36,364 bases of DNA from Candidatus Rokuibacteriota bacterium. GTDB lineage: Bacteria; Methylomirabilota; Methylomirabilia; Rokubacteriales; CSP1-6. The stretch is from NCBI GenBank assembly GCA_016179925.1, contig JACPCG010000104.1, positions 1-36,364 on the forward strand. The letters are read 5' to 3'. Positions 33,454-36,364 of this stretch are shown here, in pieces (the first letter of the stretch is position 1; the number at the start of each line of letters is the position of its first letter). A program made the position numbers and the translations under genes. Below the pieces are notes generated by a model that worked only from the letters and a program-made list of their open reading frames with translations, searched no databases and was not told the origin of the DNA.

Positions 33454-34698
33454 TTACTTCGGCTGCGACTTCGGGGTGCCGGCCCTCAACAGCGAATTGA
33501 GATACGCCGCGAGGTCGGCGAGCTCCTGGCCCTTGAGCACGGGCCAGGCGATGTTCTGCGTCTGGGCCTTGGCTTCCATGTAGATCGCGTGGTTCCACAT
33601 GCCCGCGATCAGGCTCGCCGGCGATCCCACGACGGTCGAGACGGCGAAGTCGGCGGCGAGCTTGCCCCCCTTGCCTCGGACGGAGTGGCAGGTGGTGCAG
33701 CCCCGATCCTGGACGAGCTTCTGGCCGCGCTCGCGGCTCCCGGTCAGCTCGAAGTAGTGGGAGACGTAGAGATACGAGAGGATGTCGGCCATGTCCTGGC
33801 CGGCGAGCCTGGGCACCTCGATCCCGCGCTCCTTCATCTTGGCCCACATCGCGGGCCCGTGATTCCACATGAGCGCCGCCAGCCGCGTGAGGCTGACGTG
33901 GTGGCCGCTTCGACCGAGGTCGGGGCCGACCTTCGCGCCCTTGCCGCCGATGGAGTGGCAGGCGACGCACTGGCGCTCGGCAAAGAGTCGCTCGCCGCGC
34001 TCCGGCGTGCCGGGCACGACCTGCGCGGTCTCCCCGCCGGCTTCCGTTGCGGCCTGGACGACGTAGGCGATGACGTCGACCATCTCGCGGCCCTGGAACG
34101 TCGGGCGCGGAATGCCCTTCGCCTTCATCACCTCGGCCATCTGCGGGCCGTGGTTCCACATCGCCGCCGCGACGAGGACGGGCGAGTTGGCGCGCCGCAT
34201 CGGGTCGAGCCCCGGGCCCACGCTGCCGCCCCTGCCGCCGACGGCGTGGCACTGGACGCAACCCTTCGCGGCGAACAGCTTCTCGCCGGCCCTGGCGTCG
34301 CCCAGCTCGTCGAAGTACTGGGCGGTGAAGATGAAGGCGATCAGGTCGGAGGCCTCCTTCGGCGTGAGCTGCGGCCGCTCGATCCGGACCGCGCGCATCC
34401 GCTCGCCCATGCGCGGCAGGTGATTCCACATCGCGGCGCCGATCTCGAAGAAGCTCTTCCCGGCCTCGATCCGGCCGAGGTCGGGTCCGACGCCGCCGCC
34501 GAAGCCGCGGATCGCGTGGCACTTGCCGCAGCCCTTGTTGGCGAAGACGTCCCAGCCGGCGATCATGCCCCACGCGGGCCCGAACGGCTGCGAGGGCGCG
34601 GGCGGCGACGGCGCCTGCTGAGCCACGGCGGGAGCGAGCGCGGCGACCACGACGAGGACGAACGCGGCGAGCACCGTCACACCACGGAAGAGGGGCAC
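33454..34698 (-). CDS. Tetrahaem cytochrome c, four tandem WNH units
   Basis: About 414 residues, exported (signal ends APAVAQ). The four haem sites are CGKCH, CVQCH, CVACH and CTTCH. The associated motifs AAMWNHLPRM, AAMWNHGPQM, ALMWNHGPAM and AGMWNHAIYM lie 29 residues behind CXXCH in the units counted. Closing helices include KEASDLIAFIF and QELADLAAYLN. The start is uncertain: GTG 34698 gives a compact signal peptide, while TTG 34734 adds 12 residues. Unlike its paralogues it is not inside a complex operon; it follows arsM by 24-60 bases and precedes a two-component pair. Probably a free periplasmic carrier. Confidence 0.88.
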   Translation of the reverse strand: MPLFRGVTVLAAFVLVVVAALAPAVAQQAPSPPAPSQPFGPAWGMIAGWDVFANKGCGKCHAIRGFGGGVGPDLGRIEAGKSFFEIGAAMWNHLPRMGERMRAVRIERPQLTPKEASDLIAFIFTAQYFDELGDARAGEKLFAAKGCVQCHAVGGRGGSVGPGLDPMRRANSPVLVAAAMWNHGPQMAEVMKAKGIPRPTFQGREMVDVIAYVVQAATEAGGETAQVVPGTPERGERLFAERQCVACHSIGGKGAKVGPDLGRSGHHVSLTRLAALMWNHGPAMWAKMKERGIEVPRLAGQDMADILSYLYVSHYFELTGSRERGQKLVQDRGCTTCHSVRGKGGKLAADFAVSTVVGSPASLIAGMWNHAIYMEAKAQTQNIAWPVLKGQELADLAAYLNSLLRAGTPKSQPK

Positions 34699-34752
34699 GG
34701 CAGTCAATCTACGGCCGGCCCTCCGATCCGTCAAGCGCCGCGAAGCAGTATG

Positions 34753-34767
34753 ATCGCACTATGCGAT
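34753..34767. promoter_or_regulatory. Short palindrome at the arsM end / cytochrome start
   Basis: ATCGCA-CTA-TGCGAT is a perfect inverted repeat with a three-base centre. It overlaps the arsM stop codon and lies just before the tetrahaem gene. Possible operator; nothing else supports it. Confidence 0.25.
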
Positions 34768-35628
34768 ACGACCCGCCCTTCCGCGCCGAGCACACGATTG
34801 CGGCTTCACACTCGTGAACTTAACGCTGGCCACCTTCCCTTCCACAAGAGCACGATCTTCCTTGCTCGGAGGCGGGGTGAATTCTTCACCTGGACAACAG
34901 GCCATTGCTTCCAATTCCTCTGGCGTCAGCAGGTGACGGGCCACAATCTGAATCTCAGCAAAGCCCGCCTTCCTCACCGTCTGCCAGTACTCATCCTCTG
35001 GAACCGCCCCTCCCAAACATCCTGCCCACGTTGATTGGAAGCGCTCTCGGAGCTCCAGATTGATGTTCTCTGTCAGGACGATATCGGAGATGGCGAGCCG
35101 CCCACCGGCTCTCAGGATACGAAAAGCCTCTTCGTACACCGCCGCCTTGTCCGGGCATAGGTTGATCACGCAGTTGGAGATCACGACATCCGCGAGACTG
35201 TCTGGAAGCTGTGTTCTCTCCATGTCCGCCTCGCGGAGTTCGATATGGCGGTCTTGCAAGCCCGCCTCGGTCACGGCCTGCCTGGCCCGCTCGATCATTT
35301 GAGGCGCGAAATCCACTCCCACGACTCTCCCCTGCGGTCCGACTTTGCGAGCAGCCAGGATGACGTCTATCCCCCCACCGCAACCGAAATCCACCACCAC
35401 CTCATTGGGCTGCAGGTGTGCGAACCCGGTGGGGTTGCCGCAGCCCCGAGAGAGATTGAGGGCAACCTCCGGCACCAAGGAAAGCTCCGTCTCTCCATAG
35501 AGTCCCTGATCCACTGCGTAGCCCGAACTGGGCTGCCTCTTACTGGGTCAGCAGGCCTCCTTGCGGCCACCTGTCTCGGCGAACTTCCCATACCGGCTCC
35601 TTACAAGTAACTTGACCTGCTCGCTCAC
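34759..35628 (-). CDS. arsM: Arsenite methyltransferase ArsM, probable selenoprotein (in-frame UGA at 35548-35550)
   Basis: Transfers methyl groups from S-adenosylmethionine to trivalent arsenic in the cytoplasm. Clear ArsM marks: LSRGCGNPTG, the SAM motif VVDFGCGGGIDVILAA, SNCVINLCPDK with a catalytic Cys, AGCLGGA and ACCPG. A frame read only from GTG 35514 lacks the N-terminus. Reading on upstream in the same frame gives MSEQVKLLVRSRYGKFAETGG, then RKEAC, UGA, PSK, ending at GTG 35628 behind AGGGGGAGAAG. This aligns with the family's N-terminal SCCG region, and UGA occupies the second Cys. A hairpin suited to selenocysteine insertion follows. Total 289 residues if read through. The coding stretch is less GC-rich than its surroundings, suggesting transfer. 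The alternative is a nonsense mutation. Confidence 0.85.
35520..35534 (-). promoter_or_regulatory. Candidate bacterial SECIS hairpin behind the arsM UGA
   Basis: On the minus strand the bases AGCCC-AGTTC-GGGCT form a five-pair stem with a GU-containing apical loop that begins 18 bases after the UGA. This meets the usual bacterial SECIS pattern (loop 16-37 bases downstream, short GC stem, G near the loop start). The stem is short, so the call is tentative. Confidence 0.55.
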
Positions 35629-35674
35629 CTTCTCCCCCTCCCTTCGCCTTTGCGCCCCGTCGATTCGCTGGATG

Positions 35675-35711
35675 ACTTGTAGCACTACTTGTCCCCCTAT
35701 ATAAGGCAAGT
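35675..35711. promoter_or_regulatory. Candidate operator/promoter of arsM with three ACTTGT half-sites
   Basis: Half-sites ACTTGT occur at 35675-35680 and 35687-35692 (spaced 12 bases) and, inverted, as CAAGT at 35707-35711. An AT-rich TATATAA (35699-35705) lies between and could serve as a -10 region for minus-strand transcription. It lies 47-83 bases before the arsM start. Arsenic-responsive control is inferred from context only; no regulator gene is in the window. The rest of 35629-35888 shows no gene. Confidence 0.3.
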
Positions 35712-35888
35712 TCATTATTTTCGTAGGGCGTGATCCCTCGACCCAGAGCCACGGGCGCGAATCCTCGTGTCAGTTCCGCGGCTCTCGTAACTCTGAGCAT
35801 TTCAAGGCCGCCATCTCTTCCAGTAGTGGGGACCCACACGAAAGCCGGTAAAGCCATAAACGGGAATCCAGTGCATTTTCGGGTGAAA

Positions 35889-36364
35889 ATGGCGACCGTG
35901 AAGCTGCTCTTCTATGCCCTCGCCCTCGCCGGCGGCTTCCTCCTCGCGAGTCTCCTGAGCTTCTGGATCGCCGTGCGCCCGCCGCGCATCGCCATCCCGC
36001 TTCACCCGAAGGACTTCCGCCTCGCCGTCGAGGAGGTGACGATCACCGCGGAGGACGGCGTGCGCCTCGCCGCCTGGCTCGTCCCGCGCCCGGGCGCTCC
36101 CGCGGTCATCCTGCTCCACGGCTACCCGGCCGAGAAGGCCGACCTGCTGCCGATCGCCGGGGCGCTCGCGCCGCGGTTCACCGTGCTGCTCGTGGACCAG
36201 CGCTACTTCGGCCGGAGCGGAGGGCGCGCGACCACGCTCGGCGTGAAGGAACGGCAGGACCTCAAGCGCGCCATCGACTTCCTCGCGGCGCGCGGGTTCC
36301 ACGCCGTCGGCGTCTTCGGCTTCTCGCTGGGCGGCGCCGTGGCGCTGCTGACGGCCGCCGAGGA
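35889..36364 (+). CDS. Alpha/beta hydrolase, 3' end outside window
   Basis: The only convincing plus-strand gene; 158 codons are visible. An N-terminal hydrophobic segment (LLFYALALAGGFLLASLL) suggests a membrane anchor or signal. Then come VILLHGYPAEKADLL (oxyanion-hole HG motif), VLLVDQRYFGRSGG, and GVFGFSLGGAVAL with the nucleophile elbow G-F-S-L-G-G. This is the esterase/dienelactone-hydrolase-like layout; the acid and His of the triad lie beyond the window. ATG at 35889 is chosen, with GTG 35883 equally in frame. Divergent from arsM; no functional link is apparent. Confidence 0.85.
   Translation, partial: MATVKLLFYALALAGGFLLASLLSFWIAVRPPRIAIPLHPKDFRLAVEEVTITAEDGVRLAAWLVPRPGAPAVILLHGYPAEKADLLPIAGALAPRFTVLLVDQRYFGRSGGRATTLGVKERQDLKRAIDFLAARGFHAVGVFGFSLGGAVALLTAAE

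Follow-up and report, generated by a model that had tools for sequence, protein, structure and literature searches.

An arsM-like gene of a Candidatus Rokuibacteriota bacterium carries a TGA codon near the beginning of its reading frame. This raises the question of whether the codon ends the protein or is decoded as selenocysteine (Sec) and, in the latter case, what selenium would do at that position of an arsenite methyltransferase. The gene is located in positions 1-36,364 of contig JACPCG010000104.1 (assembly GCA_016179925.1), and "the window" is used here for this whole stretch of 36,364 nucleotides.

The interrupted arsM frame and its product

The arsM frame runs on the reverse strand (35628-34759). 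In translation its sole interruption is the TGA at 35550-35548, and the frame is open on either side. The N-terminal part of the product reads VSEQVKLLVRSRYGKFAETGGRKEACUPSKRQPSSGYAVDQGLYG..., and the frame continues to a normal stop. A first-pass annotation of this DNA had described the single UGA in an otherwise open frame and a GTG start with a ribosome-binding site. Both descriptions hold, the ribosome-binding site being a purine-rich Shine-Dalgarno stretch. The features of the gene are as follows.

34759..35628, reverse strand: gene for an ArsM-like SAM-dependent methyltransferase, from the GTG start through the stop; product of 289 residues if the TGA counts as Sec
35629..35642, reverse strand: purine-rich Shine-Dalgarno stretch 5' of the GTG, from the sequence
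35551..35553, reverse strand: Cys26, the Cys half of the Cys-Sec pair, nearly invariant in the alignment
35548..35550, reverse strand: in-frame TGA, read as Sec27 (ACUPSK); TGA in 14/14 close orthologues, aligned with CmArsM Cys44
35520..35534, reverse strand: putative SECIS hairpin of the bacterial type (AGCCC-AGUUC-GGGCU), its apical loop lying 18 nt past the UGA
35440..35442, reverse strand: Cys63 (GCGNP), equivalent of CmArsM Cys72 by alignment
35170..35172, reverse strand: Cys153 (SNCVIN), equivalent of CmArsM Cys174 by alignment
35017..35019, reverse strand: Cys204 (CLGG), equivalent of CmArsM Cys224 by alignment
34894..34899, reverse strand: Cys244-Cys245 (MACCPGEEF), C-terminal Cys pair, clade-typical by alignment

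When the TGA is read through, the top NCBIfam match of the protein is the arsenite methyltransferase family NF008823, with a score of 239 bits that does not reach the curated cut-off of 263 bits. The predicted fold has a mean pLDDT of 84, and its best Foldseek matches are ArsM structures, with CmArsM first and CrArsM and human AS3MT close after. According to the alignment and the predicted structure, all four ArsM cysteine positions and the SAM-binding fold are kept, the first of the four as Sec27. No arsenic gene was recognised beside arsM within the window. The product of the neighbouring gene at 33454-34734 has four CxxCH haem-binding motifs and is of the multihaem cytochrome c type.

Because of the sub-cut-off score and the lack of a recognised arsenic neighbour, the substrate has to be deduced from the family, and we infer that the enzyme would methylate arsenite. 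Both observations would also suit a selenoprotein clade whose substrate is a different metalloid or soft nucleophile, bound directly by Sec27, as would the fact that the known Sec-bearing relatives are fusions with other domains. Such a substrate is unlikely, given that the four ArsM-diagnostic cysteine positions are all retained and that the nearest solved folds are those of ArsM. In addition, two clade members with cysteine in place of Sec27 pass the NF008823 cut-off (L087, 265.7 bits; L088, 265.0 bits) and a third falls narrowly short of it (L086, 259.7 bits).

Cys/Sec pairing and the conserved hairpin

Relatives of the gene were collected in a scan with one genome per species, which found 28. 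TGA occurs at the identical codon in all 14 genes that reach 67% identity, the window gene included, the 13 orthologues being 67-83% identical to the window ArsM. The hosts of the TGA type come from five phyla and are Rokubacteria CSP1-6, several Desulfobacterota, 'Deltaproteobacteria' (some now Myxococcota), two Chloroflexota and one Nitrospiraceae (Nitrospirota). Seven more distant homologues, with 56-66% identity over the alignment, have TGT or TGC at this codon and belong to Phycisphaerae, Gammaproteobacteria, Nitrosomonadales and Parcubacteria. Every one of the 22 aligned proteins has Cys or TGA in the Sec27 column, in agreement with the earlier claim that the UGA directly follows a Cys codon and stands at a conserved cysteine. 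In a tree of 22 rows, one branch, with a support of 91/91, separates the 12 full-length TGA rows from all the others. The Syntrophaceae orthologue (L084:5001-5825) keeps the TGA and has a shifted and longer hairpin; its frame is broken further 3', possibly as a sequencing error or in a decaying copy.

The codons 5' of the TGA have a median dN/dS of ~0.12, which is near the core value and indicates purifying selection on either side of the TGA, so the N-terminus appears to be translated in frame. These comparisons bear on the simplest alternative, in which the TGA is a true stop that arose by nonsense mutation or sequencing error and arsM is a pseudogene. The window's own assembly lacks selA, selB and selC, and arsM lies in a lower-GC island of laterally acquired look, as such a history might leave behind. 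The same codon is nevertheless TGA in 13 other assemblies of several phyla, with nearly all frames intact on either side rather than disrupted as they would be in decaying sister genes. The shared TGA refutes this explanation for the clade as a whole, and with purifying selection on both sides and a conserved hairpin it is very improbable for the window gene.

Even less credible is a model in which a short peptide ends at the TGA and an internal GTG (35514) serves as a second start, yielding a 251-residue enzyme without the N-terminus. The window does have a GTG 12 codons past the TGA, and the core domain is complete 3' of the TGA. The orthologues, however, have GTG, GTT, GTA or ATT at that codon, so that no start is conserved, and the 26 conserved residues before the TGA correspond to the N-terminus of the Cys-type ArsM. 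The dN/dS upstream of the TGA, this N-terminal match and the variable GTG together make both the pseudogene and the restart models unlikely.

Reading the TGA as Sec calls for a SECIS element. The published rules for bacterial SECIS elements specify an upper stem of 4-16 bp, a loop of 3-9 nt with a G in the first two loop positions, a loop 16-37 nt after the UGA and an MFE of at most -7.5 kcal/mol (PMC13188914). The window hairpin satisfies these rules with 5 bp, the loop AGUUC, a distance of 18 nt and -11.1 kcal/mol. The five-pair hairpin of the first-pass annotation is real, and the 18 nt given there for its beginning is the distance to the loop, the stem itself beginning 13 nt after the TGA.

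Hairpins within these rules also occur at about 11.5% of codon positions in the same genes, and the fold of the window hairpin is not significantly stable (z = -0.48), so that the single hairpin is weak evidence. The comparison among genes is strong evidence, since such a hairpin follows the TGA in 14/14 TGA genes and the Cys codon in 0/7 Cys genes, and the hairpin region is free of synonymous variation. Codons +5 to +9, which form the hairpin, have zero synonymous differences among 12 full-length sequences (gene mean 0.43), the lowest variation among 129 five-codon segments of arsM. The hairpins of the TGA genes have 5-7 pairs, a loop with G followed by U or G, and a loop 18-19 nt past the TGA. 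A covariation test of the hairpin gives a weak result, since the helix shows almost no variation, with one compensatory pair change, in L093, where a two-sided change (AACCC/GGGTT) retains the helix. A search of the arsM hairpin region in Rfam gave no match to a SECIS family.

Selenocysteine machinery and spread of the gene

The window's own assembly is 81% complete and consists of 223 contigs. Among the sel genes that the first-pass annotation had linked to its reading, selD is present on contig 102 (L011:1501-2442) and is itself of the Sec type, with its usual Sec position encoded by an in-frame TGA (CAGUASKM); selA, selB and tRNA-Sec (selC) were not found in this assembly. The neighbours of selD are an apparent LysR-type regulator and a PhnD-like binding protein. 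The best selB-like match in the own genome lies in the IF-2 gene and the rest are partial matches to the model that score under the cut-off, while the tRNA-Sec candidates proved to be tRNA-Ser, tRNA-Leu and similar.

Across the 60 genomes searched, selA was found in 57, and the window's own genome is one of the three without it. All TGA genomes tested (L073-L075, L077-L084, L093) have a selA sequence, in one case as two fragments only, whereas selA is absent in 6/7 Cys-type genomes. The genome search found selA, selB and tRNA-Sec all present in CSP1-6. In the family, tRNA-Sec lies close to selA in 9/9 members examined and selB adjoins selA in 8/9, the ninth contig (L110) ending within selA. 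Together with a small conserved gene, the tRNA-Sec gene, selA and selB make up a compact cluster of ~6 kb with conserved neighbours (L053:2164-6950; L104-L111). When three of these neighbours were sought in the own assembly, two had no match and the third a weak match only. Since the neighbours are missing together with the three sel genes, one assembly gap is likely and best explains the absence of selA, selB and selC.

That absence would also fit a suppressor or an altered code that inserts Trp or Cys at the UGA, a reading that is very improbable with an otherwise invariant Cys column, a specifically retained SECIS-like hairpin and selA in the TGA-bearing genomes. The shared TGA, the Cys/Sec pairing, the conserved SECIS and the co-occurrence of selA identify arsM as a selenoprotein gene by sequence criteria. 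The apparent stop thus almost certainly codes for selenocysteine, and the selenoprotein reading of the first-pass annotation is borne out. By the same comparisons, we infer that selenium would be incorporated at residue 27. SelB with Sec-tRNA would decode the UGA at 35550-35548, aided by the hairpin just 3' of it. We are confident, short of certainty, that the gene encodes a selenoprotein of the ArsM type, a putative As(III) methyltransferase with a hairpin-aided Sec27 and the arsenic-binding cysteine trio kept.

The gene is carried by 2/95 genomes of the window's class, and the arsM stretch (window 34700-35900) has a GC content of 55-63% between flanks of about 69-76%. The narrow occurrence and the low GC content make it likely that the window arsM was acquired laterally. 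The plasmid records searched contain ArsM only at <60% identity, with no close plasmid-borne relative, and no ArsM relative was found in the viral contigs searched.

These observations suggest that standard gene callers would end such ArsM genes at the Sec codon, and that the Sec type may tie arsenic detoxification to selenium supply.

Position of Sec27 and other ArsM selenoproteins

An exchange of Sec and Cys points to those cysteines of an enzyme that take part in redox catalysis. AS3MT is a human arsenic-metabolising enzyme, and the role of the N-terminal cysteine of ArsM/AS3MT (Cys44/Cys32) has been less clear than the roles of the arsenic ligands. We take Cys32 of human AS3MT to be the equivalent of CmArsM Cys44. 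The profile alignment with CmArsM pairs Sec27 with Cys44, Cys63 with Cys72, Cys153 with Cys174 and Cys204 with Cys224. These CmArsM residues make up the set of four cysteines conserved in ArsM (PMC5552862), and the members named as arsenite-binding are 72, 174 and 224. Cys32 of human AS3MT takes part in a disulfide whose reduction precedes catalysis (PMC4211708).

Sec27 would take the place of the first of these cysteines, with Cys63, Cys153 and Cys204 as the arsenic-binding trio. The first-pass annotation was correct in placing Sec at a conserved cysteine; its description of the position as arsenic-binding probably needs correction, since Cys44/Cys32 lies outside the trio. Because this position is not among the three usual ligands, a redox role is likelier than ligation. 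By analogy with human AS3MT, Sec27 probably works as a redox (resolving) residue instead of binding arsenic directly. It could act as a fast one, with a Se-S bond made and broken during the thiol/disulfide steps of methylation. Its partner in this bond may be Cys26, Cys63 or the C-terminal Cys pair. In the predicted structure, Sec27 adjoins Cys26 in a segment predicted to be poorly ordered. A natural Sec exactly at Cys44/Cys32 would provide independent evidence for the redox activity of that residue.

The fold and the four cysteine positions are common to the window ArsM, CmArsM (4FR0, 4FS8, 4FSD) and human AS3MT (8XT7), although the latter two have all cysteines, no Sec and longer chains. The Cys-type clade members (L085-L090, L092) have the cysteine pattern of the window ArsM and differ from it in the TGT/TGC codon, the missing SECIS-type hairpin and the predominantly selA-free hosts.

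Selenoproteins of the ArsM family are already known. Fomenko et al. (2007) is reportedly the source attached to one of them, the Sec arsenite methyltransferase WP_011987699.1. This protein is on record with the motif UxxG, as are ArsM/AhpD and ArsM/DUF2284 fusion selenoproteins (PMC13188914). Like the window ArsM, WP_011987699.1 (NF008823) is an ArsM-family protein with one Sec for a conserved Cys. Its UxxG motif appears to fit the CLGG cysteine of the CmArsM Cys224 type, an arsenic ligand, whereas the window ArsM has a Cys codon there (Cys204) and Sec at the Cys44 position (CUPSK). The selenoprotein families NF041537 (ArsM/AhpD) and NF041536 (ArsM/DUF2284) share the ArsM-like core and the recoded TGA. 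They differ in the Sec motif, UxxG, and in a fused second domain; the window ArsM ends at residue 289, its matches cover the methyltransferase part only, and it scores far under both curated cut-offs.

Sec at a Cys44-type position of ArsM is unrecorded in the sources searched, a set that leaves two key papers outside, and at the level of sequence it would be a new variant. It seems fairly likely that a laterally spread, multi-phylum ArsM clade carries selenium at the Cys44/Cys32 redox position rather than at an arsenic-ligand position, and that Sec thus serves two steps of one reaction.

Two further ArsM-like genes with an in-frame TGA are found on contig 143 of the same assembly (L054:1634-2577 and L054:3504-4337). 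Their TGAs are at the Cys224-type position (LAGULAGT, WTAUIGGA). Both proteins have Gly (SNGV) in place of the Cys174-type residue, which suggests altered substrate binding. TGA genes similar to this pair recur across the window's class.
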